Shown piece by piece: positions 5,312 to 32,608 of a DNA stretch of 47,000 nt. Position 1 is the first letter of the stretch. Each line of letters opens with the position of its first letter. The notes under the pieces are model-generated. The model was given only the letters and a program-made list of their open reading frames with translations. It was not told where the DNA came from and made no database searches. The translations under genes and the position numbers were made by a program. The DNA comes from a virus: positions 1 to 47,000 of the IMG/VR virus record IMGVR_UViG_3300035643_000004; one strand, given 5' to 3'.

Positions 5312-5313
5312 TG

Positions 5314-10970: not shown

Positions 10971-10971
10971 G

Positions 10972-11006: not shown

Positions 11007-11048
11007 GCCTTTTATTGCGCTTGTTTTTAGAGACTTAGAAGGATTTGA

Positions 11049-11570: not shown

Positions 11571-11582
11571 AACAAGTCCTCA

Positions 11583-11708
11583 TTAGCCGCCCATGAAGAT
11601 GCCGCCCAGTTTGCCGACGATCCACCAGAACAAGAACCACCCGCCAACGAGCAGAGCAAGTACGATGGTCACTCCGAGTACGATCTTGCCAAACAGTGCC
11701 CAAGTCAC
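11583..11708 (-). CDS. Tiny membrane protein, holin candidate (41 aa)
   Basis: GTG 11708 overlaps the upstream TGA (GTGA), with AAAGG ahead. Nearly the whole peptide is one hydrophobic segment (GKIVLGVTIVLALLVGGWFLFWWIV). It sits directly upstream of the endolysin gene, where holins are normally found. Single-helix holins of this size exist, but most are longer, so the role is inferred from position. Confidence 0.5.
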   Translation of the reverse strand: MTWALFGKIVLGVTIVLALLVGGWFLFWWIVGKLGGIFMGG

Positions 11709-11809
11709 GGCGAGCCTTTCTTGCCAAAAAGTTTGTGGGCTATCCAGCCAATTCCAATCCCAATTATGCCGATAGGCCACGCCCACCAAATTAACGGAGA
11801 TGCCGACAT
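11705..11809 (-). CDS. Tiny membrane protein (34 aa), possible holin partner
   Basis: The ATG at 11809 shares a base with the upstream TAA (TAATG). The peptide has one helix (LIWWAWPIGIIGIGIGWIA) and a basic tail HKLFGKKGSP. Together with the next 41-aa peptide it forms a coupled pair of single-pass proteins before the endolysin. A holin/antiholin pair is possible. Confidence 0.45.
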   Translation of the reverse strand: MSASPLIWWAWPIGIIGIGIGWIAHKLFGKKGSP

Positions 11810-12528: not shown

Positions 12529-12628
12529 GTCTGATTTCTCCTCCTGGTTTAATTTCTGCGAGACCTTGCCCCATTTACGCCAGAGGCAGAACGCATCTAT
12601 GATATTCACTTCCCACCTCTAACCGAGA

Positions 12629-13038: not shown

Positions 13039-15102
13039 CTATGGTCCGCAACGCCTAGTTACAATATAGGTGGAACCCGAAACAGGTGTGCCACCAAAAG
13101 TAAATACGGGTGCTGTCGCGCTCAGACTCGTTTGGTTTATAAGCGTATTAGTGCCTGTTCCACCAACCATTCGCATATCACAAACGACCGACGCGCTTGG
13201 CAGTTGATTCGTGAGTGTATCGGTAATGGTAGGATTCGCACCCATAGTTCCGCTCGCAGTGATTGTCCACTGGCATGTTTGGCCTTGGCCGACTACGCTA
13301 GACACAGATGCGGAACTTCCCCAGCCCCCACTCAATGCAAGTTCACTGTTTGTGCAACCTGTACCTGTAGTCGCAAAAGCTCCTGATCCCAGGACATTAC
13401 CACCTTGCATTAGTGCTGCTTGAGTCGTTCCCGGCGTTCCCCAATAAAAGGCTCCAGACTTACTGATGGAACCTATAATGCTCCCGCCGCCTGAAATTAA
13501 AAGTGATCCATCGTAATTGCCAGGATAGCCGTTTTGCAGACAGTAGTTTTGACTTGTTGATTCAGTGGAAGAGAGACAGAATCCTTCACCCCCGCCGCCA
13601 TTACCTGTGAGGTTCATAGTAACGACATTAATCGAGTTGGCGATTCTACAATTTTCGCAAAACACACTTAAGTCCGACGCCTGACTATTGGTAGCTTTGA
13701 CATATTTGAGGCTGCCACCAATTATATTAAGCAGAGCCCAATTTGCACTTGTACTTGTATTCCAGAGAACGTCAGGTTCAGATGAAGTCCCAGCAATTGA
13801 ATAGTAATCAATCAGAGTAAGAACTTGTGGCGCTCCTGCACCGCTAAATGACGATGTGCCCACTCCGAGCAGCGGATTATTCGGAGCAACAGCCAAATCA
13901 TAAATACCTGTTTCCTGAATCGTTGTGTGTGCCATACTTAGGAGATTGATCGCGCCCCCCACTGGCATTTGAAACACTAAGGCTCGGATCGCATTATTTA
14001 TCCCGAAACTGCTTGTGATTTGGGCTTCGAGCCACAATGCGTAAGTGCCTTGTGTGCTACTCGGAGCATTGCAAGTAGTACCGCTGAAACTACAGGCTGT
14101 AAATCTGCTTGTTTCAAACGTATTAGCGTTCACGCCAGGATTTTGCGCAAAAATTTCGGGCACGGTATTTGCAGACGGGTAATAAACATCATTGTGATCC
14201 CACCAGTTGCTTACATAAATGGCGCTGGAGCCAACGCTGTAAACGACGGCCTTAGCGGTGTTATATTGCAAAATCAAGCAGTGATGAATATGCCCATGGG
14301 CGGTAGTTCCACCGACAAGGTTAAAAACGTGTCCTCCGCCAGTCGCTGAAATGAGATTCAGATGAGAAATTTCCCAGTTCACCGCGTAACTACTGCTTAA
14401 AAATAAATCGCTACTGCTATTTATGAGAGTTGATCCCAACCCAGCAGGGAAAGACGATCCCAAATAACATGCACCGGACGTAATCGGAAGCGGACTGCTA
14501 GTTTTATACGTCCCTGATGGAAAGTAAACGCATCCTTGAACGGCGATAGCTGCGGTTTCGGCTGAAGAGATTGCGGTTGTGTCATCCGTTGTACCGTTTC
14601 CCGTCGCGCCATATGCTTTGACGTTATAAATCTGACCGGCAGCGGCAATGAGCAACGATTGCACTGCGCCAGAAGTAGCAAGCGTAGGCAAGTCCTGAAT
14701 TTCTTCTGTGAGCTTGTCAAGACCATACTCGAATGTTTTGTAGAGTGCTGGCATGTACTCCGTAAAAGAACTGGTCTGCGTTTGTTCGGTCACACGCTGG
14801 ATTGTGAGTAAATTACCTGTAGCACAAGCACTCGAAAGTGAAATGCTCCCACCGTTTGCAAAGGAATTGTTGACCGGAGTGATTGTGTATTGGGTAGAAG
14901 GAATGGTACTCGAAACGCTGCCAATGGTTTCGATCACTTCTATGCTGCCTGCATCGTAGGCTGGGAAGCTAAACGAGAATGGCCCCGTAGAACCAGAGCA
15001 AGTATAGGTCACACTGTTACTCGTACTGGTCACTGTGCCGAACAGGGTTCTACCTGAGATTAAGAATAGAATTATTGCAGCGGTCGCTTTTAAGATTTTC
15101 AT
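13039..15102 (-). CDS. Tailspike with T7-type N-terminal adaptor, pectate-lyase-like helix and a signal peptide
   Basis: Residues 1-22 are a Sec-type signal (basic start, then ATAAIILFLISGRTLFG). Residues 25-150 read like the T7 gp17-type virion-binding adaptor (FSFSFPAYDAGSIEVIE, GGSISLSSACATGN, LLTIQRVTEQTQ, YGLDKLTEEIQDL). From about 160 the NVKAYGATGNGTTDDTTAISSA motif begins a right-handed beta-helix of the pectate-lyase/tailspike type, which usually binds or degrades surface sugars. Many Cys occur in near pairs (FTACSFSGTTC, FCENC). A signal on a virion-attached spike is unusual. ATG 15102 follows CGAGG. Confidence 0.8.
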   Translation of the reverse strand: MKILKATAAIILFLISGRTLFGTVTSTSNSVTYTCSGSTGPFSFSFPAYDAGSIEVIETIGSVSSTIPSTQYTITPVNNSFANGGSISLSSACATGNLLTIQRVTEQTQTSSFTEYMPALYKTFEYGLDKLTEEIQDLPTLATSGAVQSLLIAAAGQIYNVKAYGATGNGTTDDTTAISSAETAAIAVQGCVYFPSGTYKTSSPLPITSGACYLGSSFPAGLGSTLINSSSDLFLSSSYAVNWEISHLNLISATGGGHVFNLVGGTTAHGHIHHCLILQYNTAKAVVYSVGSSAIYVSNWWDHNDVYYPSANTVPEIFAQNPGVNANTFETSRFTACSFSGTTCNAPSSTQGTYALWLEAQITSSFGINNAIRALVFQMPVGGAINLLSMAHTTIQETGIYDLAVAPNNPLLGVGTSSFSGAGAPQVLTLIDYYSIAGTSSEPDVLWNTSTSANWALLNIIGGSLKYVKATNSQASDLSVFCENCRIANSINVVTMNLTGNGGGGEGFCLSSTESTSQNYCLQNGYPGNYDGSLLISGGGSIIGSISKSGAFYWGTPGTTQAALMQGGNVLGSGAFATTGTGCTNSELALSGGWGSSASVSSVVGQGQTCQWTITASGTMGANPTITDTLTNQLPSASVVCDMRMVGGTGTNTLINQTSLSATAPVFTFGGTPVSGSTYIVTRRCGP

Positions 15103-15111
15103 AGTTCCTCG

Positions 15112-15360
15112 TTATCTTATAATGCCCTCACGCAACAAGTAGACCCCTAAGCCTAGTGTAGTCCTAATACCTAAGAGTTGACGAGCATTCCTCAGATGGT
15201 TCTTGACAGTTTGATAGCTTACGCCGAGTTCTGTTGCAATCTCTTTTGGCTGCATATCGTCTACCAGCATCTTTATCACATCTAATTCTCGGCCTGTGAG
15301 CTTGTGAGCAAATTGCCGCCTCTGCCTTGCGGTTCTGGCGATTGGGCGCGATTCATCCAT
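15112..15360 (-). CDS. LuxR/GerE-type helix-turn-helix regulator (82 aa)
   Basis: Residues 20-75 match the GerE domain closely: LTGRELDVIKMLVDDMQPKEIATELGVSYQTVKNHLRNARQLLGIRT. This tetrahelical domain binds DNA in response regulators and quorum-sensing proteins. There is no receiver or autoinducer domain, so it is a stand-alone HTH. It lies between two spike/fibre genes in the same operon, an unexpected place for a regulator. It may time late or lysis genes, or act on host promoters. Confidence 0.85.
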   Translation of the reverse strand: MDESRPIARTARQRRQFAHKLTGRELDVIKMLVDDMQPKEIATELGVSYQTVKNHLRNARQLLGIRTTLGLGVYLLREGIIR

Positions 15361-15376
15361 TGTAAATCCGAGTGAA

Positions 15377-16918
15377 CTACTGCCTTAAAATGCGAAAGAA
15401 TCCGGGGAACCCTAGCTCTTCAAGGTGGCTCTCCCATTCTACCAACTTACTGATTATAATTGGCGAGGCCGTGCCAGGGGGAGGCATCAACGGTCCACCG
15501 GCAGTCATGGCAGCCGAAACAATCACGTTTGAGTAGATTACATCGGCAGCATTGGAGATGGTTCCTGAACCCAATTTGCCGATCCTGAATAGAAATGTTC
15601 CACCGCCGAAGGCTTCATGGGTGCCTGCCTCGGTAAGTTGACTTAGTAAAGATGTGACTTGGCCGCTAGAGTTGACATTGAAAAGCCAGAGATAGTTTGT
15701 GCCGCCTGATCCAGTTACATCAAACGTCTGCCAATAATATATGTTCGTCGTGATCGTACTGGTTGCGGGAGCGCTGCCTCCACCCTGCTGATTCTCCAGG
15801 TGGATGACGAAGTTAGTACCACTACCAGTGTAATATTGGGAATTGTACTCGTCGCTACTTGCACCAAGTAGGAGCGAGTCAATGTTCCCAGACGCACCAA
15901 GCGTTCCGGTAGGGTTAATCCTTATGTACAGGCCACACGCCAAGTTCGGGTATGAAGTATAGAATGTGTTCCCCCAGTACCCTTCCGCCCCCGATGTGGT
16001 AGTGACGTTCATATCGAGGGCGACATTTACGTTGCCGCTGTATGACCCCCCGCAGGCGCTTAAGTTACTAGGAAAAGGCTGTCCTCCTTGGACGTAGCTA
16101 TACGAGATGCCCGTCAGGGTGCTAACTACCCAATCGCCCGTAGCGTTCGCGTTCTGCGCGTTAAAGTTGCAGGGTGTGCCTGATTGTAAGGTGGAGGCAG
16201 TCACGGAATTTCCGTACTGCCCGTTGAAGTTCACGTAGAACGAAGGCGGCCACTGACCAGTTACTGTCGTTCCGTTTAGCGTGATCGTCTGAATGAAAGT
16301 ATTATAGCCGTTCCCCCCGCCTACTTCAATCGAACCGATTGGGTATCCGGGGTCGGCCCAAGAGCTTCCGCACTGCGTTCCGTCTATATATCCGTACATC
16401 GTGGTGCCGTTGCTGGTTTCTTTGAGCGTGTGCCCGGCGTTCGCTGAGGCTGTACATGTGGTGCCGTTAGGGAACTCAAATCCGCCTGTATAGGCCTGAA
16501 TCTGGCCCTCGATGTTCCCTGATGTCCAGTAAGAACGTAATCTAGCCAATTCCGTATAGGAGCTTGGATAGGCAGACAGGTTTGCCATCATGGTGAAGGT
16601 AAATCCGGTGTTCAGTGGCACCAATGGCATAGTGCCCGCGCTGATCAACTTATTCGCGGTAGTCGCCGACGCTAACTCTAAGGCGTTTCCGCTCCAACCG
16701 CTCGGCGCGGTAACAATGCTTTGACCACTTCCCGAACTCGCATACCACTGTTGAATGCACTCAGCTGCGGACCCCGTTCCGCCTGACCAGCAAGCCTGTG
16801 GATTAACCCCATTATTGCCGAAGTTCTCCTGGAAGGCCGTGCCCGCGGGATAAATCTGCTGTGCTTCTTTAGTAGAAGGCCAAAGTATCAGAATCAGAAC
16901 TAGGAATAGTCGTCTCAT
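15377..16918 (-). CDS. Secreted fibre-like protein (513 aa)
   Basis: A signal-like N-terminus ([20 protein letters not shown]) is followed by a beta-rich body of low charge, high in Gly, Ser, Thr, Tyr and Asn. The segment [26 protein letters not shown]...[14 protein letters not shown] resembles a jelly-roll or lectin-like sandwich. Cys are paired ([13 protein letters not shown], then TTC...TQC). The ATG overlaps the upstream stop (ATGA), so it is translated with the 1286-aa fibre. It probably binds glycans as a receptor-binding or accessory protein. No exact family is recognised. Confidence 0.65.
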
Positions 16919-19900
16919 TGCGCCTGCACGGTATTCAAAATTGGTGGACCGAGCGTGAGCGTGAAAATATCCGGACTCACCGCCGCTGTGTCTCCCGAGC
17001 CACGGCTGACCTGGATGAATATTTGCCCGCCTGCTGTACAGTTTGTGAGGCTGGTCGAGTTGAGGAGCACCGACTCAGAAAAGACCGTATACGCAGTGGA
17101 AGTTGTCGTGGCGGTTGGAAACGCCTGCGGGGTCTGAAACGATGGGTTGCTCGTTGGCGTCGAAGAGCAGGCAATCGCGATGCTCAGGATGATCGAACTG
17201 GAGGCTGTAGTGTAATTGCCTTGATCGAAATCTATTGTGGCGTAGAGGCCTGTCGAGAAATCCCAGTTCTTTGGGATATGGTAAACCGGCGGCTGCCCGG
17301 AAGTGGACTGAGCTATCGTCAGCACACCCTGGTTTGTGTTGGATTGCGTAAGACAGGTAGGCACCAGAGCGGCTGATGTCGGCAAATTCCAAGCTGTCGC
17401 TGCCGTCGTGCCGTTACAGGCCGCCGCCGGGAACTCTTTCGAGTCCATGAAGTCGGCAGGAGTATAAGTGCCCGCTGTAGTAGTCGAGAAGGGAATCTTA
17501 CCGGCAGTCGTAGTGGTGTTTGCTCCGTCGATCATCACACTACTATTCACGTCGGATGAAATTACAGATGAACTCGTTAGATTACCCGAGGCGTTTAGAT
17601 GAGCTACGCCCGCACCAAGCGTAGTAACTTGAACGACTCCGGCTGAGCCCGCTGTACCTGACCCCCCTGTACCAGCCGCTCCTGGCGTCAGTACAATGTT
17701 CCCCCCGCTGGCGTTATTGGCAGTTCCCGCACTATTCCCTCCCGCACCTGCCGTAATTGTGCAAGAACCGCCAGCCGCTCCAGCATTGTTTGAACTCGCA
17801 CCTGTTCCACCCGCCCCGCCACAAGTAAATGTCCCGGCACCAGCGGTACCTCCAGCGCCAGCCGTAGGCGATCCACCAGCGCCCGCAAGGACTAATGTGG
17901 ATGAACCTCCAGTACCTCCTGTTCCCGACGTGGCACCACCCCCAGCGCCACCAAGCGTAAGTGTTCCACTACCACCATTTCCTCCATTCCCGGATGTACT
18001 TCCCCCGGCAGAGCCAGCCGCTGCAAAACTCCCTGTAAATCCCCCGCCTGTATTTCCTGCGCTTGTGACACTTGCTGGGCCGCCGCCGATGGCCGCGTTT
18101 ACTGACACAACATTCGGGGTATTTGTCCCGGATGCTGCCGCCGATTGAGTAACTTTCAATGGGATTGCCGTGGAGCCGCTAGATGTGGAGATTCCAACTT
18201 CAATATCACCGGACCCGCTTGCTGCCGAGGTTTCGCCAAAAGAAACTGCCGTCTGTGAACCTGTGGTGGTCGCCGAATTGAAAGCTAAGGTATAATTGCC
18301 ATCCGCAAATGTTTTTGACGCTGCTGCACTTCCCACGAGGTCCAGCGTCAAACTTGTGCAAGTTGGCACAGCAGTCGAACTGATGGCTGTTACCCATTGA
18401 CTGCTACAGGTTCCTCCAGTTACTGTCGGGAAGACGCTTGAGCCTAGCGTCCAAGCACTTCCAGCAGCAACCCATGTTGCTCCGTATCCAGCGGTTGGTG
18501 TCAAACTCGTGGCATAGGCCGCAAGGCGTGAATCCGCGCTGTTAATATAGCCGTGATAATCTTTGTTTGTGGTATCGAACACTAAAGCGCCTGCTGCCGA
18601 GGCAGTGTTAGAAGAGTTGGATGGGAGCTTAAAAGCCGCAGTCCCAGTAGCCGCGCTCAAATCAACAAGTCCTGACGCACCTGATTTCAGAGTGTGGGCT
18701 GTTGATCCGATTGTGAAGTCAGCAGAAGCAACCGGAGCGCTTCCCGAACCACCCCCTTCCAAAACTTCATACTGAGTGAGTCCAATATCAGGAGTATTCG
18801 CACAATTATTATTGCCATTGCTCAGCCCTTGCGAATACTGAACTCCTGTGCAAAGAGACCCCAGTTCCGCAACTCCGTAGGCTGATGTCGTAGAGTAGGG
18901 CATTTCTGCGCTGACACTATCGGTATTGCTACTTTTGCTGGTCTGGAAAGTCACATTGGCGTAATTGCTTTGCGCTGCTGGGGTTGAAGCGTTGAAATTG
19001 ACCGTATCGCCTGCGGTAAGTCCAGTTCCTGCAATCTGAAGCGCATAGCTGCTTGGTGTCTGAAGAGCGAGCGAACCATTATTATCGAATAAATATCCGG
19101 TACTGGACGCTAAGGTGGGTAGGGAAATTCCTCTCAGAGCTACTACTGTGGCTGCCATCGAGCCACTTGTCGTCACGTCTGCCGACAGATTACCGGTCTC
19201 AATCGTCGTGCTCGATGCCCACTCTGCCAAACTGCCTGTAGTAATAACGCCAGAAGTGCTGACGTTGCCCGATCCTGATGGCGTAGCCCAGGTTCCGTCT
19301 CCCCGCCAATACGTTGAACTACTCGCGCTCGTGCCGTTATTGAGGTTGCCGACAGGCAGATTTCCTGTGATGATATTTGCGCCGCCCCCAAGATTGAGTG
19401 CGCCGTAAACTGGAGCAGCGCTTGCTTGTGAAATGAGCGGTACTCCCGTTACAGTTCCGGGGCCTACTCCTGCTAGTGCCGCGCCCGCTCCCTCATTGAT
19501 TGCGACGCTGTATTGTGCCGCACTACTGTTGACGTTGCAGTTTGATCCCAACGTGCAGGTTTGACCATTCACAGTCGCCGCTGTGTTGGTCATACTGAAA
19601 GTTCCATTACCACCCCCAGCCGTAAATGTTAAGCCCGTTCCAGCGAGATAAGGCCCGACGCCGTAGTAAGCAGAACCGCTTGAGAAAACAACCAACGTAT
19701 CGTAGCTGTTTAGCGTTGGTGCGGAACTACCGCCATTCCAAGTGTTACCATTCAGACTCACGGTTGCGAGTGTTGATCCGATGCTCTCTACCTCGACTGA
19801 CCAAGGCGCACCTGGGGGGGTACCTGGCAGCGTAACTGCGCAAGTAGAAGAGCAATTCATCACGATGAGGGCACCTAGGTCCGTGGACGTAATAGTGTAA

Positions 19901-20775
19901 GCAGCGGTTTTGACTACCGCTCCCTCAGTAACAGGATTAGCTAAGGATAGGGTCACGCTGCCGCTCGTTCCTCCTCCTGAAAGTCCGGTGCCCGCCGTTA
20001 CGCCAGTAATGGTGCCACTGCCGGCAGGCGTGTACCAACCCTGCGAAGTACCGTTGTAGCCCCAGTATTGTCCGTTAGCTGGACTTCCGGCTATTGCAGA
20101 AGCAGTTGCGGAGTTAAATCCGGTGGCACTACTGATCGAGTTCCCAAGGCAAACATTGGTCGAGCCTAGAGTGATACAGGAATTGGCACTCCCAAACAGA
20201 GACGACGGAGAGACTGATCCGTAATCTGACAGATCACTTGAAGCTGGTTGTGTTTGTCCAAAGGTATTCGGTGCCGTAAATGAGTTGATCCACTTATGGC
20301 TAACCGCAGAGACACTTGAGAGTGCGGCCTGTTTACCATTGAACGTAGACCAGTCAGTTGAAGCTAGGTATCCACTTGCGCTTGTAGTGGCAACTGGAAT
20401 GGATAGTGTATTCGTACTGAGGGTCAATGGAGAACTGATAGTCGCCGTGATCTGGCTAAGAGCATAATCGCTGGTGCTTGGAGAAACCGCGCCTGTACGC
20501 CCGTTGAACGAACTCACCCCACTCACGCCTGACTGGGCTACGGAACTCCAAGTATTCGCTGAGCCTGTGTAGAAGCATACCACCCAAGTTGTCCCGGAGC
20601 CTGTGCCGCAATCTGACGAATTGGCACCGTTTGTTACAATCACAATCCCAGCAGGTTGAAAGGCGGCGCTAATCGGAATGGTTGTCTTCGGGATTGCAGT
20701 TGGCGCTGGGAGAATGGCCCATGAACAAGGAGCCAATGTGAGAATGACTATTAGAAAAAGCAGTGACTTTTTCAT
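16915..20775 (-). CDS. Giant secreted tail-fibre-like protein (1286 aa) with a Gly-rich region
   Basis: Residues 1-20 are a clear signal ([20 protein letters not shown]). The body carries fibre motifs: [22 protein letters not shown], then [26 protein letters not shown], both common in phage long fibres. Around residues 905-1045 a Gly-rich stretch with GG-x-GG repeats ([24 protein letters not shown]) could form polyglycine-II helices as in adhesin tips of T-even-like phages. Cys are strikingly paired ([33 protein letters not shown]). The C-terminal 130 residues look like a beta-sandwich tip. It is likely the main receptor-binding fibre. Confidence 0.75.
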
Positions 20776-20785
20776 GTTCGTCTCA

Positions 20786-21340
20786 CTACTGAGATTTGAA
20801 GATCAGGTCGAAAATAATTACGGCATTAGCATTGGAACTTGTGTTGCCAGTAACACCAAGCACCAAATTGCCGCTCCTTACTACAGGATAGTTCGTAGTC
20901 GAATTTGCTATCACATTCATCTGCGCTGCCGTTGCACTGCCATTTGATGTTAGTAGACCAAGATCGAGAGCGAATCCCTGGACATCTGTAATGGTCGTGC
21001 TGTAGTTGGCAGTTGGGCATGTGGCGGAGCAGCTAGTATTTGAGGCCGTGACGTTCCCTGGCGTTCTTCCAACTTGATATAAATAATACCCAAATAGATT
21101 ATAGGTATTGATTAGACCAGAAGAACTGGTTGACCCGCTCATCGGAATGGCAGTGGCAGTCGGAATGCTCCCGCTTCCATCAGCCGTGCATTTAATTACC
21201 ACATCGACGGTCCAGGAATCAGGTACGCGACTGTTGGCATTCTGCGTGCTAGTTACGTCAGTCACCGTACAGGTGCCAGTTGCAAACACAGGAACAGTTA
21301 TAGCCAACGCCAAAAGCAAAAATAAAGCCTTGAGTTTCAT
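20786..21340 (-). CDS. Secreted fibre-associated protein (184 aa)
   Basis: The signal [20 protein letters not shown] is textbook. The mature part is beta-rich, contains Cys in [17 protein letters not shown] and SCSATC, and ends with [13 protein letters not shown]. The GGAGG ribosome site before ATG 21340 is strong. It lies directly upstream of the giant fibre gene, so it may be a fibre subunit or its periplasmic folding partner. No family is recognised. Confidence 0.65.
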
Positions 21341-21349
21341 AAATCCTCC

Positions 21350-22603
21350 CTACCAATACCCCCATGTCTTCAGAGTGTCGATCTTTTCCTTAGCAATGGG
21401 GAAAGCTCTTGTGAATGACTCAACTTCCGTGCCTTTCAGTTGCCCGCTGATTTCTTTGCACCGCTCCATGCAATCATCTAAGTTGCTACCGTGAGCAACT
21501 ATTGCCGCGATTCTCGGGTCGTCGCCATGCGGCATGATCCAAGTCTTGCCATCAAACTCTGTATTATACCGAAATTTTAAGTCATTTCTATATTTTTGAG
21601 GAAATTCCACTAGGAGCGGGTGTTGTCGCGCCCACTCTGAATGCACGATCAGTTCAACGCCGAATCTGCCATCATAAACCGGATTGACCATGCGGCCTTC
21701 TGCGCCTTCCCAGAGAATATCAGCCAAATTGGTGATCCAGTTCAATTGCAGTTCAAGGGGAGGCGATCCAGCGCGGCAACACGGATCGCCAAGGTAAATC
21801 CGTTTGGCAAATGCGCGAGATTCTAGGGACAAGAAGTTCCGATATTCGTATTCCTTAAAGCTTCCAGAAAGTTTACTGTAAATCTCTCGCAGCAGATGAG
21901 GCATCGCAGCCCAAGCAGCGACTTCACCCACATAACATTCGCCCTTTTCTTCCGTACCAAGGACTGTTGTGTCTGGATATTGTCCGTCGATGCAATGCGT
22001 GTCGATGGCGAGGTCAATACTTTCCTTGAGATTTTCCTCCACAATGTAAGTCATCTGGTTAGCTTTCGGACCTAAGTGAGTTTCAATCTGATCCAACTTG
22101 TTTTTGCCAAGATCGTAGCCCTCGACACAAAAGGTTTCAAAGTCACCTCTGGCTTTGTTCCCTTTTATCCATAACTTCTGGCCGTCGTGAGTCTTGACGT
22201 ATTTTCGGACATTCATCATGCCCTTGATCGGCTCATAGTCCGCCTGCAAGATGCCCAACTCCCGACAGTGGATTTTTGAATCTTTCCGGTAAATCTCAAG
22301 TTCGTCGCCTTCCCGAGACCCCCAAACGCGCTTGCCGATGGATGCCAAGTAAACTTGCATCGGCCCTTGGTAGATGTCCGGGAAAATAAAGAGATCGCAA
22401 TCGTTGATGACCTCATGCACATCATCAATCCTATCCACTTCGGCCATCCCCTCAGAAACTTCAAGTTGCTCACTTACTGGAAAACCTGAAACCCAGGGGG
22501 ATGTATACCATACTTGGCCGAACGAGCGGGAGAGCGTTCTTGCCAGTTCGCTAAACAGCCCGTTATCAGAAACGCAGACGCTCCGCTTTTTATAGGAGGT
22601 CAT
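21350..22603 (-). CDS. ATP-grasp enzyme of the PurD/carbamoyl-phosphate-synthetase-like type (417 aa)
   Basis: ATG 22603 overlaps the upstream TGA, so the shorter of two possible starts is chosen. Residues about 120-290 carry the ATP-grasp core: WIKGNKARGDFETFCVEG, MTYIVEENLKESIDLAIDTHCIDGQ, then EYRNFLSLESRAF and GDPCCRAGSPP. The last resembles the metal-binding DPxCRxxSP seen in phage PurD-like proteins. Such enzymes join a carboxylate to an amine, thiol or similar group using ATP. The substrate is unknown. Being inside the virion operon, it may modify a virion protein or host metabolite. Other phages have such a gene near structural genes. Confidence 0.75.
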   Translation of the reverse strand: MTSYKKRSVCVSDNGLFSELARTLSRSFGQVWYTSPWVSGFPVSEQLEVSEGMAEVDRIDDVHEVINDCDLFIFPDIYQGPMQVYLASIGKRVWGSREGDELEIYRKDSKIHCRELGILQADYEPIKGMMNVRKYVKTHDGQKLWIKGNKARGDFETFCVEGYDLGKNKLDQIETHLGPKANQMTYIVEENLKESIDLAIDTHCIDGQYPDTTVLGTEEKGECYVGEVAAWAAMPHLLREIYSKLSGSFKEYEYRNFLSLESRAFAKRIYLGDPCCRAGSPPLELQLNWITNLADILWEGAEGRMVNPVYDGRFGVELIVHSEWARQHPLLVEFPQKYRNDLKFRYNTEFDGKTWIMPHGDDPRIAAIVAHGSNLDDCMERCKEISGQLKGTEVESFTRAFPIAKEKIDTLKTWGYW

Positions 22604-25600
22604 CGGTAAGACCCCCGAATGCTGAATTTTTTTTTGCCAGTCCGAAGTGGTTTTACTCCCTTGGGAAGCACATGCCTTGGAGGTGCGCCGCCGATCATGG
22701 TGAGATAGTCCCAGAAACCGTAATCGTGCGTTGTGTCGGTCAACATCCGAACCGCATTGGTGATACTGAACGGGATCGGCGCAGTATCCAAGACTATATG
22801 CCATGCGCCTTCTGCCGTACCCTTGAGAACTCCGGTTCCCCTTTTAACAATCTGGCGGCCCATCCAATCTCGGTTGGTTTCGAGTTGAATCGCAGTTCGC
22901 ACAACGGGACTGAGCTTATTGCCGATAGTGACTGCCGTACCTATGACTGCGCCGTATTCGGAGACGTTGTTCATAAACGTGATAAGGTCTTTTGGCGCGC
23001 CGGCGAAGAACATATTGGAGTAAACCTCACGTCCATGCTTGTCCTTGCCAATGTAGACTTCAGTGGGATGATTCGACGGCTGGCCTGAAACAGCGAGACT
23101 CATTGCTTGCGTCATGCCCATTCCAATAAGCGCAGACCGAATCCAGAAAGCTCGTGCTGCGGTTCCCGCAGGTCCACCCTCAAAAGCGTATTTCAGATTT
23201 AGAAAGTTCGAGAACGTCCAATCAGGTGCCAATAGAATCGCTTGTGCGACCGCACGAAAGTTTCTGCTCGCTCCCATCACTTCCCAATTCAATCCGCCGT
23301 AAACCGCATTGACTTCTCTTGCAATTCCTCGTTTGGCCGCAATCAGTTCATCAGAAGCAGCATCTGGATGCTTCGCCATCCATGCCGCCTTTTTCGTTGC
23401 GTAATCCATTACCTTGAACTTGCGCTGCATCACATCAAAAGTCTCATGGGTAAGCCATGCAGCAACGGCCTCTACCTGCTTTACGCCAGGAAGTTCCCGG
23501 AGCACATCTGTTCTTGAAGGAAAAGTCTTAGGCTGAACTGCTCGGTATGCTTCAACAGTCCTGCCAAGCACAGGAGTTTGTAGCCCGTTCCGTATTCCGT
23601 CTACCTCTTCGTCTTTGAATTCCGTAGATTCCATATCGGACATCCAAGATCGCATGAGACCACGTAATCCTTCATTACTCAAGGCTGAGATATTGAGTGC
23701 CTTCATGTGGAAGACGGATAATCCAAGCTCAGCAGCTTTAATATACATTTGTGCCGCGCGGAACGTCGAGAAACCCGGAACACTGAAAAGTGTCGCCCCT
23801 TCCAGGATCGGTCTCATCGCATCTCGCACCTTCGTGGGAACCATAAGCATTTGTAGCGCTTTTCTTGGTTCACCTGTTTCCTTGTCGATGTAAGGAATGA
23901 TGTTGCGAAAGAGTCCGATCCCAGGAGCAAGTTCGACCCAACCATCAGGAATGTTATCGGCGTTCTTGAATCCCCACTTGCCAAGTTCTGTTTCTTTGAG
24001 TTCATTGACAAACATACGGGTCGCAGCAGCGGTCGCGTGTTTTGAGCCGTAAATTGTCAGTGCATCAAGAGCATTAAGCGTTTGCGCTCTGACTTTACCC
24101 GTTTCCAGCGCATCAAGAACTGTTGGATACTTTCTTTCTTTGGCGAACCGGAGATATCGGCCAATTGCGGGACGCGGCAGAAATGTTGCCGCTGGTTCTT
24201 CTGGCTCTGTTTCTGGTCTAAGCAGGTGTGTGATGTATTCTTCGTTCGTAATTTGACTATCAAGGAAACCCAGTCGCTTACCTTCTTCAAGGCGAGTTTG
24301 AAAATACTCCGTCAGCCGCCGATCAGCTTCAAGTATCTGCGCTGTTGGATTCAGTGCTCTATCAATGATTGGAATGAGCTTCTTCAGTTTCGCAACGTCT
24401 CCTGCCTCGTAACGTGCTCGCCTTTCGGCAAGTTCTCCTGGTCGGTTTTTGAAATCGCGCACCAAACTCAATGCTTCTTGGTCGCGGTAGTCCGGTACGA
24501 GTTTGTGGAGAGAATCGGCCAGTTGATTCGTTTCGGCTATGCGCGCATCTCGGTTGCCCACGAAAAATGTTCTTAGTGCCTCTCCAAAGCGCGAACCTTC
24601 AGGTAGACCACGCTCAATTCTTTTGAGTCGTGTGCGTAAGTCTTTCAATTCAGCAGTAAGCGGAGCTAGACTCGGACCAGCTTCCTTGCCGTGGACCTGT
24701 CTTGCAGCTTCGTTGTAATCCTCAGAATGGAATTCTGCGCCTTCCCCTGCAATCCCTTGCCAGGCTTTGTATACTTCCGGCTCATTTTCCTCAACCCAAC
24801 TTCGAGCTTCTTCACGAGTCAGGAAATCTCTTTGAGGAGCAGCAAACCCACGCTCCGCTTCTGCTGGAGCTTCGCCTTCTGGGTACATTCTTTGGAGAAT
24901 GTCGGGATGCGTTTCTCCTGGTTCACCAGCTTCAACCCGCTCACCTATTCTGATCGCAGGTTTCAAGTTGCCTAAAGGCTCGTCTCCTTCTTCCATCGGT
25001 GGCGCAACCGAATCGGGATTGGCAAGCACCTCTGCGGGATGCACGCCTGCGCGTGCGTAAGTATTCTGAAGATAATCACGTGCTCCGCCGTATCCAAGTG
25101 TCCCAACATGAATTGCAGCAAACATTGCAGCGTTGTCGATAAAATCTCGCTTCGTAGGTACTCTTCCTTCAAGTAAACTTCCCACTGTCGTCATTGTCGC
25201 CAGTTCTGCCGCAGCTTTGTATAAACGGGGGCTGATATACCTACCGACAGCACCCGTAGCGACTGGCGCAACTTCTCCAGCCACTCCGAAAGCCGCCCCA
25301 GTCAATGCACCTTTGCCAGCTGCTTCAAATACATCCAGAATCTCACGGAAAGCCGAAATTTGCTTGCCATCGTACTTATCGACGAGCCATTGACGCATCG
25401 CTCTGGTTAGTCCAAAACCCCCAGCGCCAGCGCCGACGACCCCGCCCGAAATCGTCCCGACAACGGGAAATTCGGGTGTTCCAACTAAACCTCCAACAAA
25501 TGCCCCGCCTGCCATTCCAATCAGGTAGAATGGTAAGTCTCCCACCATTTGTCCAAACTCTTCAGTCCATCTCGCCAATTCATCATCCGATTCAAAAGGC

Positions 25601-25953: not shown

Positions 25954-27695
25954 TACCGGATTGTTCCGTCTTGGTACTTACTGAGAATGCGTCCGTCTTT
26001 GGTTTGGCGCTGTTCTACGATCTGACCATGTTCCGTCCATTCTGAATATGGAGTTTGGATTGTTGGCATAGTCGCTCCGGAGATAGCTTCTCCCTCTTTG
26101 GGAGTTGCGAATCGTCGTGACCAAATCCTGTCAAACCACTGGCTGATAAAACTCTGGTTCACTCGGTCTGCTCTGGCTTTCAATTCTTTGCTCAGTTCGT
26201 CGGTTATTCCTTCTCCAGTCAAATGGTTTGCTTCTACAGTTCGTTCAAGCGTTTGAAGAAATTTCGACATCTCGATCTTGTTCGCATCAATTGTCAGATC
26301 ACCAAACGTGGGCGATGTCTGGACGATTGCAACAGCCTGCCTCCAAGCGGGGTCTGACTTGATGCTTGTAGTCTTAGCTAAGAAATTGTAATCAGCATGT
26401 GTCAGATCGCCAGCGTACTTCTGAAGTTCCTCTTCTGGGATGTAACCGCCGTGGGCGTCCATAAGAATCTTCTGCGCTAAGTCGGCACTTCTTACCTCAC
26501 GTTGCTCACGCTCAAATCTTCGCTGATCCATCGTGAGCATGAGTTTCTGTCTTTTGATTTGGTCGTCTGCCTGCACAATTGCAAGCCCAACATCCTCCTC
26601 GATCTGGCCGCTTTCTATCTGTTGTTCGATAGCTTGTATCTGTTGGGAGTTCAATGAGCCAGTCTCGGCTAGGAACTTAAAATGAGTGATGACTTCTCTA
26701 TTTGCCGTCGTAAGCGCTGCTCTCTGATCTTCTGCGCGCGCCCGCAACCGAGGCCGGACATAATCTTTGACTTTTTCAGGAATCGTGTTGTCCTGATCCA
26801 GTCGTTCGATTGCTTGACGCCAATCGGTCCTACCTGTTCTCGGGTCTTTCAACGTCACATCGTTTGAATCTTTGACCAGAATTGGATCACCTTGCGCTCT
26901 GACATCATCTTCATCCTTCAGTCTTTTGGCTTCTCGAAAGGCGACATTCAAATGCGCACGAAGTTCCTGAAAGCGTTTTTCCTCAAGTTCCTTAAAGTGC
27001 TCAGGATGTTGAGTGGTTTCATCAATCATAGTCTGAATTTGTGATGGATTTTGGCTTATAATTGCGTTCGTAATCCTGTGGTCCTGAGCGGCAGCATCAA
27101 GCCTGCGCATGTAGAGGGCGTGCTCTTTGGCAGTAATCCAGCCGCTTGATTCACCAGCCAAGGCCAAATGCTCAAAGTCTCCCCGGTCTCGCGCATAATC
27201 CTCTGGCGTAGTGTCATTAGCCATCTTAAAGGCGGCGTTCTCTTGCGCAAGCGTCAATTGCTCGATAAATTGCCCGCGCTGTAAGCTCAATTGGCGCATA
27301 AGGGTCAGATGGCGAGCGTCTTCGCCTACAGCGTCAACGTGAAGGTCAAGCGCACGCTTAACCATTGGGTCAGCATACTTTGGCTTTCCCTCATAGGAGT
27401 TTTTCAGATTGTCGATAAACGTCTGCGGATTCGGCAGGTTGTCAGGATCACCGGATTGCGAAAGTGTTTCCTGGAATTTGTTGTACGCTGCCTCGATCTC
27501 GTTCTTCGCTTTGGCAAGCGCCAAGTCAGCTTGTGCTCTTCTGATTCTCCCGGCAACTTCGACGCCGTAATCAGCTACAGCACCGAATTCTTGTCCAAGA
27601 TGGGCAAGTGTCTCCCCTGGTTCCGCCGCAATCTGCGGACTGATCTCCGGTGGAGGAACCAAACGAGGTGCCGTAACTGTGGGAACTTCAGCCAA
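25953..27695 (-). CDS. Internal virion protein (580 aa), T7 gp15-like position
   Basis: The product is almost entirely helical and charged with long heptad-like stretches (ERFEREQREVRSADLAQKILMD region), starting from a Pro-rich N-terminus. The gene order gp12-like, gp14-like, this, large protein mirrors T7 genes 12-14-15-16. It probably belongs to the ejection core. The start is a TTG at 27695 with a weak ribosome site. Confidence 0.65.
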   Translation of the reverse strand: MAEVPTVTAPRLVPPPEISPQIAAEPGETLAHLGQEFGAVADYGVEVAGRIRRAQADLALAKAKNEIEAAYNKFQETLSQSGDPDNLPNPQTFIDNLKNSYEGKPKYADPMVKRALDLHVDAVGEDARHLTLMRQLSLQRGQFIEQLTLAQENAAFKMANDTTPEDYARDRGDFEHLALAGESSGWITAKEHALYMRRLDAAAQDHRITNAIISQNPSQIQTMIDETTQHPEHFKELEEKRFQELRAHLNVAFREAKRLKDEDDVRAQGDPILVKDSNDVTLKDPRTGRTDWRQAIERLDQDNTIPEKVKDYVRPRLRARAEDQRAALTTANREVITHFKFLAETGSLNSQQIQAIEQQIESGQIEEDVGLAIVQADDQIKRQKLMLTMDQRRFEREQREVRSADLAQKILMDAHGGYIPEEELQKYAGDLTHADYNFLAKTTSIKSDPAWRQAVAIVQTSPTFGDLTIDANKIEMSKFLQTLERTVEANHLTGEGITDELSKELKARADRVNQSFISQWFDRIWSRRFATPKEGEAISGATMPTIQTPYSEWTEHGQIVEQRQTKDGRILSKYQDGTIR

Positions 27696-27704
27696 GGAAT
27701 AGCT

Positions 27705-27902
27705 CTAAGTCATATCAGGATTCCATACCGATCCAAACACCAGAACGTTGTTCTCCTTATCCACGACTGGGCAAGCGATCGCACCAGGAGGTCGAGGGCA
27801 ACCATGTGAAATCCTATCAGCGCAATCTTCGCACACATACTGTTCAGTGCCTTTTACCTTGAATAGCGGAGTAGATTCCTCCTTACACATCACACATTTC
27901 AT
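27705..27902 (-). CDS. Small zinc-ribbon protein (65 aa) within the virion operon
   Basis: MKCVMCKEE and YVCEDCADR provide two CxxC pairs 20 residues apart, a single zinc ribbon. The ribosome site GAGG is well placed before ATG 27902. It sits between the two smaller internal virion genes, so it may be a minor virion or assembly protein. Function is unknown. Confidence 0.55.
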   Translation of the reverse strand: MKCVMCKEESTPLFKVKGTEQYVCEDCADRISHGCPRPPGAIACPVVDKENNVLVFGSVWNPDMT

Positions 27903-27911
27903 GTTGATACC

Positions 27912-28361
27912 TCACGCCATAATGGTAGCCATCTGGCTACCTGATTTCGCCAAGCCAGCAAGGAACGTGCTGATACCACCGACGGTCCCGCTGAAAGCCA
28001 CCATCTTGCCGTAGTAACGCTGCAAGGCGGCTTCTTCGGTGCCAGCCAGATATTCGCTTTCTTGCTCTTTCGCACCTTGCACTGCGGTATGCGCCATTAC
28101 CAAAAGCGGTGAGCCGGAAGCAATATCCACACCTGCCGCAGCATACCGAGACGCCTGCTTACCCGTTAGAATAGCATATTGCGTCTCCGAGGTCTGCATT
28201 TCTTCTTGCATTCGCTGGAGGGTGACTGCGGCATTATAATCATAGGCGGCTTTCTTTTCCTGACCAGCTTCATACTCTCCCAAGCCCGACACCGCACTGG
28301 TCAGAGCGCCAAGTCCAGCAAAGCCCATCTGGAGATTTTTAAGTGTGAGCAGGTCGCCCAT
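27912..28361 (-). CDS. Internal core protein, T7 gp14-like (149 aa)
   Basis: The N-terminus has a Gly/Ala-rich helix (LQMGFAGLGALTSAVSGLGEYEAG), then a long charged helix, the turn AAAGVDIASGSPLLVMAHTAVQGAKE and a hydrophobic C-terminus (FSGTVGGISTFLAGLAKSG). This layout is typical of gp14-like internal proteins that enter the outer membrane at ejection. It starts within the stop of tail tubular B (TAATG). Confidence 0.65.
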   Translation of the reverse strand: MGDLLTLKNLQMGFAGLGALTSAVSGLGEYEAGQEKKAAYDYNAAVTLQRMQEEMQTSETQYAILTGKQASRYAAAGVDIASGSPLLVMAHTAVQGAKEQESEYLAGTEEAALQRYYGKMVAFSGTVGGISTFLAGLAKSGSQMATIMA

Positions 28362-30946
28362 TATCCCATCTCCGCAACGTCCAAACGCGGTATGACGCTT
28401 CTAAGTGTAAACGGAAACGGCTCGCCATGAACAATGGAAATCGTGGCCTCGTCCTCCCAATCTCCGTCCAAATCCCGCGTGATATTACCTGTGAACAAAG
28501 CTGGCGGTAATCCTTTGGCTCCAGACCCGTATGCCATCAGATGAAGATGTTGTTGGTCGTTTCCGTAGAGACCTCCAATTGAATCGCAAAGGCTGAAAGT
28601 CACGCGGGAGATTTTTTGTTTCTTGCCTTTAGAAGTTTGCTGAGGACTCCCGAGGGTGGGATTCATCGGCTCGATGATGGTCTGGAATGTCAACCCGATG
28701 GTCACGAGATTAGCGTAATATGCGAACGTCACTTGCCCATTTGAGGGCACCGTACCTTGCCAAATTTTCGCGCCATCTCCTAGTGCAACCGCGCTTTGAC
28801 CTTGGATGTACTGAAGACCCGTGACGGTGTTTGTCACTTGGCTCGCTGAGCCGCCTGACGTGTATGGATTCCAGCCAGTCGAGTCAATCCCTGACAACTG
28901 AAATGTGTTGCCGCTCACACCCGCGACCGTATACGCCGAAGCAGGATCGTTATTCACCTGAGTCATCCCTTGCACTCCGATGATTCTAACGCTCTGGCCG
29001 TTCTGCAACGTGTGTCCAGGTGCCGTCACTACACAGGGATTGGCTCGTGATATTCCCGTAATCGTGAAAGGTCCGACTCCTTGCCACTGAAGCCCGCAGT
29101 GGACGAAAAAGCTGTTTGACAATTCGTTGAAGAGTCCTTGCGGCATGAAATACTCGATATACCTTTGAGCAACGCCATTCACAGTGCGTTGCACTGAAAT
29201 CCATACTTGGTCTTCGGCTCCGTCTTGGCTTATGCAAGCTACCGATTCGATAATTCCATCGGTGACGATTCTGAACCAAGCAAAAACCTGATCCTCTCGC
29301 TCGTAAGTCAGACCGATAAGCTGGCCGTCCGCACGCACTGCCCAGAAGATGAAATACGGGTCACGCTGAAAGGCGGTTTGTACGATGCCCGATTGCGCCT
29401 CGGTAGGCCCAACCGTTATCTCACGGTTTAGTCGCGTAAGATCGGGGCCTTCCCACTGGTTTGTGACCCAGTTATAGATGAGCAATCTTACAATGTAGGT
29501 GGAGCGCGTAACCCAAATGATAGCGTCGTTTACCAGTTGCGGGGCTACTGCGCCGACGCCCATGCTTGTCTGCTTCGCTGCGGTCACATTAGTTTGAGAT
29601 AGTGCCGTGCCTGTAGGACTAAACATTGCCCAGACACCGCTTGCGGTTCCGAGCAGAAGCGCGCTGGGAGTGCCAATCATCCACCGAATCTGGTCAATCT
29701 GCTGGCTTACCAAAGTGAATTGAATGGCATAATCATCCTCATTGGGATCACAAATGAAATCGGGGAAATCGTCCTGAACACTGCCGTTCATCTGAGTGGG
29801 ATTATCTTCCGAACCGGCTAGGCAAAAGCGCTCTTGATAAAACGTAGCGCAAGCTGGATAGTTTCCCGCAGTATTAAAAAGCGGCGGAACTTTGACTGCG
29901 AAACCGCCGCCTTCATAAGCAAGAAACTTCGACGCGTCCAAGGCGCTACTGTTCACAACTGCACTAACGACAGCCGATAAACTTTGTCCCAAAACAGTGT
30001 ACTCAATTAAGTCTCCTACCTCATACCCAGTACCAGGATCACCAACGGAAGTCCCCGTTATGACCCAAATGCTGTCATAAACATTTTCGGCTGTGATGAC
30101 CACTGTCAGGTTCGTGCCGGATCCATTGGTCGTAGTTGCGTATGTTCCTGCTGGATTAGATGTGAAAGCTCCGCCAGAAGTATCGCTCAGAGCGGCTACC
30201 GGTCCACTTGGACTTACCCCAAGCGGTAAGAGTTGAAACGTCCACGGCGCACTCGCGCTCATATTAAACACGATAAATTGGCCTTCGTTCAGTTCGACCA
30301 TGCCAGCACAAAGGTTAATGTAAATTCGGTCGCCATTCGCAAATGGCGCAGTGCTGCTGCTACTCGCAAGCGTCACTTCGGCTGGAGCGGTTGCAGAAAT
30401 AGCACTGATACATTGACCGAGAGCACTGTAGCCAGTTTTTATGACATCCTGAGTGCCGTACAGCGAAAGAACGATATAAGTCCAGTTTGTATCAGAAATC
30501 CGATTCAAGGAAGCTGGCGGGTACTTTGGATGAAGAATGTAAAGAACATCAGCGCTCTGAGTTGATACGTCGAGGTCGAACAAATCAGCTTCCGCGTAAG
30601 GCGTTGAGACTACGACGGGCGAGCCACCGCTTTCAATTAGTCCGCCGTTCATCCAAATACGGATGCCCAGAGCGTAAAATTCGATAATAGCAGTCTGAAG
30701 AGTCGAAAATTGGAAAGGAACGAGTCTCGACTTGCCTGTTGTGGCCGTCCCTAGCGGTCCACCATTCCCGGCAATTCCTGCGAAGATTGTTCCGGGCATT
30801 TTCTTCGCACCGCCTTCGACAAGCGGAATGGCGTTTTCAAGAGTCCGGCAACCGGAGGCATATTTAGAAAGATCGCTTCGGCTCTCGATGAGCCTTGAAA
30901 ATTCGCCGCCATTAAAATTATTAACAAGAACATTGGCGCGAGCCAT
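28361..30946 (-). CDS. Tail tubular protein B / nozzle, T7 gp12-like (861 aa)
   Basis: The opening NNFNGGEFSRLIESRSDLSKYASGCRTLENAIPLVEGGAKKMPGT is the hallmark of the podoviral nozzle family. The middle has VSQQIDQIRWMIGTPSALLLGTASGVWAMF and a later segment typical of its propeller (YFIFWAVRADGQLIGLTYEREDQVFAWFR). An added module near residue 640 (PFTITGISRANPCVVTAPGHTLQNG) is an insertion common in phage virion proteins. It forms the distal tail tube and holds fibres. The ATG at 30946 is favoured over a TTG one codon upstream. Confidence 0.9.
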   Translation of the reverse strand: MARANVLVNNFNGGEFSRLIESRSDLSKYASGCRTLENAIPLVEGGAKKMPGTIFAGIAGNGGPLGTATTGKSRLVPFQFSTLQTAIIEFYALGIRIWMNGGLIESGGSPVVVSTPYAEADLFDLDVSTQSADVLYILHPKYPPASLNRISDTNWTYIVLSLYGTQDVIKTGYSALGQCISAISATAPAEVTLASSSSTAPFANGDRIYINLCAGMVELNEGQFIVFNMSASAPWTFQLLPLGVSPSGPVAALSDTSGGAFTSNPAGTYATTTNGSGTNLTVVITAENVYDSIWVITGTSVGDPGTGYEVGDLIEYTVLGQSLSAVVSAVVNSSALDASKFLAYEGGGFAVKVPPLFNTAGNYPACATFYQERFCLAGSEDNPTQMNGSVQDDFPDFICDPNEDDYAIQFTLVSQQIDQIRWMIGTPSALLLGTASGVWAMFSPTGTALSQTNVTAAKQTSMGVGAVAPQLVNDAIIWVTRSTYIVRLLIYNWVTNQWEGPDLTRLNREITVGPTEAQSGIVQTAFQRDPYFIFWAVRADGQLIGLTYEREDQVFAWFRIVTDGIIESVACISQDGAEDQVWISVQRTVNGVAQRYIEYFMPQGLFNELSNSFFVHCGLQWQGVGPFTITGISRANPCVVTAPGHTLQNGQSVRIIGVQGMTQVNNDPASAYTVAGVSGNTFQLSGIDSTGWNPYTSGGSASQVTNTVTGLQYIQGQSAVALGDGAKIWQGTVPSNGQVTFAYYANLVTIGLTFQTIIEPMNPTLGSPQQTSKGKKQKISRVTFSLCDSIGGLYGNDQQHLHLMAYGSGAKGLPPALFTGNITRDLDGDWEDEATISIVHGEPFPFTLRSVIPRLDVAEMG

Positions 30947-30958
30947 CAAAACCGTCCG

Positions 30959-31687
30959 TTAGTTCATGGTGTACTCGTAACTCAGGCGCAGGTGATCGGC
31001 GCAGCTAACTGGTGCGGTTGCCACCTCCCAAAAGACGTAATCTCCGCTCGCCACAGATGTCGCTGTAATGCCGCACGACGTAGCGCCCAAAGTCGTTGCA
31101 GCAGCCGTGCAGTTTGAGGAGGAAATTTCCACCGCGCTAGTCTTGGAAACACTCGTATTGTAGTAAACCGCGTAGGCTGGTTCGGTACTACATGAACTCG
31201 CCGGAACTTCTGTCAGCACCCACGCCGCGCGCACCGTGATCGCCTTGGTTGCATACATTATCCCGAGCAGGCTAGAGGTGGTTTCGGCTGGTAATGTGCT
31301 TCCCGTACTCCAGGCTTGTTCCTGGAGTCGAGGCGTCCCACCCGAACTCGAAATGTCGCCTTCTAGGACATAATTAGTCACGGCTGGGAATGTGGCACTG
31401 TAGTTTGTCGAGCTAGAATTCGCCGAAGTAAAAGTTGTCCCTCCAGTCGAGGAGCCGAGTAGGATAATGTCGCTGTTATTGAATGTCTTGGCAGCGGTGA
31501 TTGACTGCGCCACGTTCGTTACGTCGATGTTGGCACCAGCGAACGTAGACGCGCCAGTGCCACCGTTTGCAATCGGCAGAATACCCTGTATCTGAAGCAC
31601 TAGGTTAAGCTGCGTTGTGGACGCCAAGCCGAAGCAAAGTGCGAGCACAACGCCCGCTGAAATAAAGAGCCGAGAGAGGAATTTCAT
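30959..31687 (-). CDS. Secreted fibre-like protein with NGGTG motif (242 aa)
   Basis: The signal MKFLSRLFISAGVVLALCFGLA is followed by LNLVLQIQGILPIANGGTGAST. ILPxANGGTG is a recurring unit of phage tail fibres. The C-terminal part has Cys in SSCSTEP, SNC...TSC and VSC and ends in SYEYTMN. It is one of two adjacent fibres with related N-termini. It probably attaches to the tail tip near tail tubular B, whose gene follows. Confidence 0.7.
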   Translation of the reverse strand: MKFLSRLFISAGVVLALCFGLASTTQLNLVLQIQGILPIANGGTGASTFAGANIDVTNVAQSITAAKTFNNSDIILLGSSTGGTTFTSANSSSTNYSATFPAVTNYVLEGDISSSGGTPRLQEQAWSTGSTLPAETTSSLLGIMYATKAITVRAAWVLTEVPASSCSTEPAYAVYYNTSVSKTSAVEISSSNCTAAATTLGATSCGITATSVASGDYVFWEVATAPVSCADHLRLSYEYTMN

Positions 31688-31696
31688 TAGCTAACC

Positions 31697-32608
31697 TCAG
31701 TGGTTGTAGAACGCGGTAAAGAGGTTCGTACCCGAGGATGGGCACCCGCTAACCAGCGTAATTGTACTGCCAGAGATTGTATAATCGTTAGACGAACCCT
31801 TGGTCAAAAGCTGCCCGTTCTCGAAGAATAGTAGGTTAAGCGGTGTGTAAGTTAAACTCAGCGTGCCACTTGAGCAAGTCGGACTATCGGTTTGAAAGTT
31901 GATATTGATGGCTGTTTGTGGATTCTGTAACTCGAAACTTGTGCCGTCATATACCGCGCACGCTATCGCCGTAGTGGTCAGGTCACTAGCCGCTAGGGAA
32001 GCCCCGCCAACCTTGATAATTGTTTTAGCGGTTAGGCTGTTTACAGCGAGGGTTGGTCCAGAACCAGTGTTGGCTGCGGCTGGCATCCAGCAGACGTACA
32101 GACCAGCGGTTAAGGACGTAATTGCAGGCGAGAGAGTCAACGTTTGCGCTTGAGCGGTACCACCTCCCGCCGCATAGCCCATGCTGTCAAGATTGGCCTC
32201 CGTGGCCGCTATCAGTTGCTTGCTTGAATTTGTTCCCACCAAGGGAGCACTTACTGGGATGGCCGCGCCTTCGATCTGGCCAACCGTCGTACCGCATGAA
32301 CCAGCAGTGCTTGTGACATCTCCTGTAAGCGCAGGTTCCTGGGAACAGACAACGCTCGTGCCCGTTGTCATCACAGTCCCGGATGTAGGAAATGTAGCGG
32401 TTGAGTTCTGTCCGGTTCCACCATTCGCTGTGGGAAGGATTCCCTGAACCTGGGTTGTGAGGTTAATCTGAGTGGCTGCGCCAATCCCAAGTAAGCCAAG
32501 CACAAGAATGCAGAAAATGAAGAAAGGCCCAGGCGAGAAAGTTGCGTATTTTACTCCGCTCCCGTACCAAAATCTTCCTCTCGCATCCCGAAAAGACAGT
32601 AAACGCAT
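31697..32608 (-). CDS. Membrane-targeted or secreted fibre-like protein with NGGTG motif (303 aa)
   Basis: AGGAGG before ATG 32608 fixes the start. The first 30 residues (MRLLSFRDARGRFWYGSGVK) are soluble and basic, and then comes a hydrophobic segment GPFFIFCILVLGLLGIGAA, so this one may be a signal anchor. The mature part starts TQINLTTQVQGILPTANGGTGQ, nearly the same as the next gene. The tail of the protein (LFFENGQLLTKGSSNDYTISGSTITLVSG) is a fibre-type beta unit. Paired Cys are present. Confidence 0.7.
   Translation of the reverse strand: MRLLSFRDARGRFWYGSGVKYATFSPGPFFIFCILVLGLLGIGAATQINLTTQVQGILPTANGGTGQNSTATFPTSGTVMTTGTSVVCSQEPALTGDVTSTAGSCGTTVGQIEGAAIPVSAPLVGTNSSKQLIAATEANLDSMGYAAGGGTAQAQTLTLSPAITSLTAGLYVCWMPAAANTGSGPTLAVNSLTAKTIIKVGGASLAASDLTTTAIACAVYDGTSFELQNPQTAININFQTDSPTCSSGTLSLTYTPLNLLFFENGQLLTKGSSNDYTISGSTITLVSGCPSSGTNLFTAFYNH

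Follow-up and report, generated by a model that had tools for sequence, protein, structure and literature searches.

Sec-type signal peptides and a coupled cysteine pair on T7-type adaptor fibres of a soil podovirus group, with a possible route of export and late docking

The accepted view places the assembly of tailed-phage virions in the reducing cytoplasm, and we know of no tailed virus that exports its fibres and locks them with disulfides before attaching them. The stretch of viral DNA analysed here (the window; 47,000 nucleotides of the record IMGVR_UViG_3300035643_000004) contains six fibre- or spike-like genes whose products begin with hydrophobic, signal-like segments, and the question that they raise is whether such fibres are exported, where they would then fold and how they could reach the virion. 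A search of open-access full text brought up no paper that describes signal peptides on the fibres of tailed phages.

Six fibre genes and their N-terminal segments

The 47-kb window carries the genes of a podovirus-type phage on its minus strand, where PHROG matches identify a portal (phrog_332), a capsid (phrog_212), an internal virion protein (phrog_418) and an endolysin (phrog_7). The tail nozzle-like protein (28361 to 30949, minus strand; phrog_376, E 3e-150), which has no signal, was taken as the reference gene for gathering relatives; it is 86% identical in the sister phage IMGVR_UViG_3300033977_000008, where the fibre leaders are kept as well. Two further features of the minus strand may be recorded. 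Gatekeeper-like and capsid-neighbour proteins (32915 to 33856 and 34167 to 34955) have an inserted module in common, similar stretches of which occur in virion proteins of the relatives, as for a mobile beta module. The gene at 21350 to 22804, whose true start probably lies near 22603, encodes a conserved protein of about 417 residues, located in relatives between the internal virion proteins and the exported fibres, for which Pfam and PHROG searches gave no match.

N termini were evaluated with a home-made Sec score that considers a basic n-region, a hydrophobic core without charged residues and small residues at positions -3 and -1, and for which 20 known signal peptides of E. coli and M13 gave values from 4.5 to 8.2. 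The six open reading frames, all on the minus strand, lie where the sequence-only reading had placed them, and its further claim that each has a signal-like start stands in part: four starts are clear, presenting all the listed traits of Sec and signal peptidase I substrates with scores of 5.1 to 7.6, one is borderline but conserved, and one has a long n-region and is possibly an anchor. Among the other virion genes of the window, none approaches the signal range, the next score (4.3) belonging to a membrane protein of the lysis region (11809 to 12609).

In particular, fibre or spike 1 (13039 to 15102; 687 aa) consists of a signal peptide in residues 1 to 22 (MKILKATAAIILFLISGRTLFG; 15037 to 15102; score 5.1), a T7-type adaptor and a pectate-lyase-like beta-helix (PF12708, E 6e-11, residues 159 to 217). 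Fibre-like protein 2 (15377 to 16918; 513 aa) is the borderline case, with residues 1 to 19 (16862 to 16918) as a putative signal that is conserved in the sister phage (L010, 8111 to 9703) and scores low (2.1) because of its charged c-region. The same locus conserves fibre-like protein 3 (16915 to 20775; L010, 4230 to 8114), a product of 1286 aa with a glycine-rich repeat stretch and a signal in residues 1 to 20 (20716 to 20775; score 7.3). A small protein of 184 aa (20786 to 21340) is predicted to be exported through residues 1 to 20 (21281 to 21340; score 7.6); its structure search returned a generic jelly-roll (best Z 7.3) with no secure match, and a search among cultured phages found no relative. 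Fibre-like protein 5 (30959 to 31687; 242 aa), which contains an NGGTG motif, has its signal at about residues 1 to 23 (31619 to 31687; score 6.3), and the different gene that occupies this position in the sister phage also has a signal-like start (L002, 9500 to 9982; score 4.1). Finally, fibre-like protein 6 (31697 to 32608; 303 aa), conserved in L002 (8779 to 9492) and again with an NGGTG motif, starts with a 28-residue n-region followed by an 18-residue hydrophobic stretch, and scores 0.7 for this long n-region signal or anchor (residues 1 to 45; 32474 to 32608). Since its sequence after ...GIGAA (TQINLTTQVQGILP) aligns with that of protein 5 after ...GLAS, both a cleaved signal and an anchor are possible, and the protein may be anchored and not cleaved. 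Between two of the fibre genes lies a lone LuxR-type helix-turn-helix-like domain of 82 aa (15112 to 15360, minus strand), which is kept in the sister phage.

Presequence and cysteine pair in the T7-type adaptor

The presence of a T7-type virion-binding adaptor in fibre 1, suggested from the letters of the DNA, was borne out by matches to PHROG tail families at residues 23 to 136 and by a T7 gp17 fold. The domain covers residues 23 to 137 (14692 to 15036, minus strand) and includes Cys35 (14998 to 15000) and Cys93 (14824 to 14826). In the AlphaFold2 model, with a pLDDT of about 95 over residues 31 to 100, residues 27 to 106 match residues 5 to 80 of T7 gp17 (7ey9_a; Z 10.2, rmsd 2.0 Å, 72 aligned), and the match to 8ck1_B reaches Z 10.4. 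A profile search aligned the adaptor with the tailspike chain 28lx/8ck1 (E 1.2e-17) from residue 1 of that chain; the Pfam search of fibre 1 gave no T7 tail fibre model at E 1 or better. As the match begins at the start of the solved chains, the presequence appears to have been added before a complete adaptor, and its removal would return the protein to the customary first residue: the predicted mature N terminus of fibre 1 corresponds to that of T7 gp17. Residues 1 to 191 are kept at 69% in the sister phage, where the C-terminal part of the protein is different.

We collected adaptor homologues from related loci and from cultured phages, obtaining 66 distinct sequences. Of these, 28 have a signal and 38 do not, the latter belonging to phages of Pelagibacter, Alteromonas, Klebsiella, Yersinia, Escherichia, Burkholderia, Acinetobacter, Vibrio and others, and to uncultured lineages. 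Within the domain, the 28 presequence-bearing adaptors all have two cysteines, neither more nor fewer, at fixed positions, and the pair is found in none of the 38 that start directly at the domain. This strict co-occurrence counts sequences related by descent and not independent events; on the adaptor tree the label changes at least once, with a best estimate of three changes overall, and a Fisher test on the first 44 adaptors (p of about 4e-12) ignores relatedness and was entered as 29 versus 15 for a tally of 28 versus 16. L093 was rejected as a signal-less adaptor, since it probably starts further upstream, at a GTG that gives VKKLMLAVFLLFPVLASA, which makes it signal-bearing.

Some virion proteins use hydrophobic N termini, and the anchor-like start of the product of 31697 to 32608 would agree with an explanation in which the hydrophobic segment is no Sec signal and is retained, holding the protein in the virion or in an internal channel. 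The 28 presequences (18 to 23 residues) make this very improbable. They have Ala at -1 in 26 cases, Ala at -3 in 20 and Pro at -6 in 16, and they keep an AxA motif and a basic n-region, with no Asp or Glu, while the rest of the segment diverges freely. Furthermore, they end at the residue aligned with the start of T7 gp17, of the solved tailspikes and of the signal-less homologues, and the cysteine pair tracks their presence. A cleavable signal peptide is thus the preferred reading of the adaptor presequence.

Two of the 38 signal-less adaptors (L052/L120 and L075/L159) are close relatives of that of the window, and occur as proteins of 357 residues with no cysteine, and the genes right after them encode signal-bearing, cysteine-containing fibres; the next genes of L119 encode products of 1119 aa with 20 cysteines and 699 aa with 15. 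L052 and L075 form a sister pair in the adaptor tree, so the loss of signal and cysteines within the clade may be one event. A separate case is L123, in which two signal-bearing T7-type adaptor fibres (3189 to 5315 and 7986 to 12347) lie one on each side of the gene that we call ATP-grasp-like, a name that reflects a sequence impression only; two fibre types could therefore be present on one tail.

The distribution of signals was considered beyond the adaptor in the 80 related viral contigs gathered with a profile of the nozzle protein. The Sec score was passed by 52 of their 825 non-redundant proteins, and the core families contributed no signals (nozzle 0/58, gatekeeper 0/54, portal 0/31, capsid 0/32), and signals were likewise absent from the virion genes of T7 and four other control phages. 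After the ATP-grasp-like gene, 51 of 66 genes were signal-positive, across all 20 of the 20 contigs that continue past it, versus 1 of the 52 genes before it. The 76 signal-bearing proteins of at least 120 aa form 34 unrelated N-terminal families, so that spread with a single mobile domain was rejected as the cause of the signals. These are metagenome contigs with automatically chosen starts, and the score is a simple one, so that wrong start codons or meaningless hydrophobic leaders, due to chance or annotation, have to be weighed. We find such an artefact hardly credible, given that the large core families encoded on these contigs have no signals, that most starts are conserved and preceded by ribosome-binding sites, and given the deposited annotation of the cultured Tunturi phages described below, which gives the same result.

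A different outcome concerned cysteine spacing. The cysteines of the six fibres had been described as coming in near pairs, a description that did not survive counting, with 10 gaps of 12 residues or fewer in the six mature proteins and 9.7 expected by chance; close spacing was discarded as evidence, as it was not above permutation in the window six or in the clade's signal-bearing proteins. The stronger cysteine signal is the adaptor pair and its coupling to the presequence. Cysteine density is nevertheless about doubled, at 1.83% in the signal-bearing proteins of the clade versus 0.87% elsewhere in the same contigs. Moreover, in the small exported protein (20786 to 21340), nine aligned homologues, 34 to 91% identical to that of the window, all keep Cys24 and Cys51, and Cys104 and Cys108 are both present or both absent.

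Host order and cultured acidobacterial phages

The host of this group of soil viruses is probably a member of the Acidobacteriota. In an Acidobacteriaceae MAG, one contig holds a signal-bearing adaptor together with ordinary bacterial genes, and the disulfide-forming enzyme VKOR is encoded in that MAG and in another genome of the same order. Adaptor copies in 397 genomes of the host order amounted to two matches, which suggests that the phages are mostly lytic or unsampled; the nozzle profile found no relative in bacterial genomes. In the same order, a second phage-like contig (L146, G363:C36, 1154 to 9213) has a signal-less adaptor without the cysteine pair, beside four signal-bearing fibre-like genes.

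Tunturi_1 and Tunturi_2 are cultured podoviruses of Tunturiibacter, described in a paper that makes no mention of signal peptides or tail fibres (PMC11924767). According to the deposited annotation, they possess five signal-bearing, cysteine-rich fibre or spike genes in one cluster before the endolysin, a clustering that they share with the window clade, and in Tunturi_2 these genes have 2.07% cysteine versus 0.49% in the other virion genes. One Tunturi spike has a signal-bearing homologue among the spikes of the window clade (E 2e-24; 28% over 618 residues). Different from the window, these phages have 63-kb genomes, belong to another lineage and show no T7-type adaptor by profile search. A rule imposed by the host was rejected, because the first 50 kb of Tunturi_3, a podovirus of the same strain (Tunturiibacter psychrotolerans X5P2), and of Tunturi_4, a siphovirus of a related host, encode fibres that are poor in cysteine and have no signals. 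Since Tunturi_3 is signal-less on the same host strain as Tunturi_1 and Tunturi_2, the trait belongs to virus lineages and not to the host.

Export, oxidation and late docking compared with known systems

Export of the fibres through Sec, with disulfides forming outside the cytoplasm, had been proposed from the window alone and is now well supported at the level of sequence by the coupling of signal and cysteine pair, by the 20 of 20 contigs and by the cultured phages. It is possible to hypothesize the following route. The fibres and spikes would be made as preproteins, each chain directed through Sec by its signal peptide; signal peptidase I would cut at AxA, leaving the adaptor fibre with an N terminus equivalent to that of T7 gp17; and the chains would fold in the oxidising periplasm, where disulfides would form, one of them putatively inside the window adaptor, between Cys35 and Cys93. 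Heads with tails would meanwhile be assembled in the cytoplasm as usual. Once holin and endolysin open the cell, virions could meet the stored mature fibres, and the T7-type adaptor could dock on the tail. Some relatives would make a cysteine-free adaptor base in the cytoplasm and limit export to the fibres that follow, presumably the distal ones.

The endolysin of the window, a phage lysozyme downstream of the fibre cluster (11049 to 11570, minus strand; PF00959, E 2.7e-36; phrog_7), would be part of the breach that brings virions and exported fibres together. Its N-terminal stretch is cysteine rich and zinc-ribbon-like, with weak Pfam Zn_ribbon matches. Also in the lysis region, the protein at 11809 to 12609 (minus strand) and its counterparts (L010, 12682 to 13482; L084, 12963 to 13715) have transmembrane segments resembling those of holins, followed by a second signal-like segment (MFLAIILTLGVTHAQAQ) and, at the C terminus, by a beta-rich domain with SYFFGQH as the last residues; the product is perhaps an outer-membrane-like protein freed by signal peptidase.

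Attachment of the fibres to virions in the course of lysis or afterwards is suggested by the T7-type domain, by the position of the gene and by the match of the mature N terminus to T7 gp17. Finished particles of P22 and T4 can be completed in vitro by late addition of the tailspike and the long fibres, respectively, so that a late docking step is plausible. The exported fibres could, as an alternative, be no part of the virion and be shown on, or released from, the infected cell, where they would block superinfection, occupy receptors or degrade surface polysaccharides. Signals and disulfides are expected of surface proteins, the window encodes several different exported fibres, and Bdellovibrio offers surface adhesins that are exported, phage-fibre-like trimeric proteins with signal peptides (PMC10769870). 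However, the adaptor retains the virion-binding fold of T7 gp17 with a conserved C-terminal segment, its gene stands where T7 and its relatives encode the tail fibre, the same place is taken by signal-less homologues in close relatives, and sister phages differ by an exchange of the C-terminal part, a pattern known from receptor-binding fibres. Display on the cell surface is thus unlikely, and exported, oxidised receptor-binding fibres that dock on virions after the membrane has been breached are the best explanation, to which we assign a probability of roughly 70%. We also lean towards regarding this as a new assembly route for tailed phages, in which Sec-exported, disulfide-bonded fibres use T7-type adaptors to attach to the virion, and do so only once the inner membrane has been opened.

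Should this be true, the final assembly of a widespread group of soil phages would happen outside the cytoplasm, fibres could be exchanged between phages leaving the same cell, the cysteine content would be explained, and the laboratory production of fibres for such phages would have to change. The proposal can be tested now, on one host strain with cultured phages that have signals (Tunturi_1 and Tunturi_2) and one that does not (Tunturi_3).

Among known systems, pIII and pVIII of M13 are filamentous-phage virion proteins with Sec signals, and pIII is disulfide bonded; M13, however, is a tail-less filamentous phage extruded through the membrane, whereas the window belongs to a tailed phage with signals on its fibres only. 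The mosaic adhesive trimer (MAT) proteins of Bdellovibrio, compared by description, are similarly phage-fibre-like, with a signal peptide directly before a beta-rich domain of about 130 residues and a reported disulfide at the tip, but they are bacterial surface adhesins, not encoded by a phage, and no T7-type adaptor is reported for them in the passages considered (PMC10769870). The virion-binding fold of the window adaptor, with the same extent, occurs in T7 gp17 and in the T7-like tailspikes Dpo31/Dpo36, and the gene neighbourhood is also that of T7, after the internal virion proteins and before the lysis genes. In T7 gp17 and all 38 signal-less homologues, the domain stands at the very start of the protein and the cysteine pair is absent; different from them, the window clade features an additional, cleavable-looking Sec signal and two cysteines.
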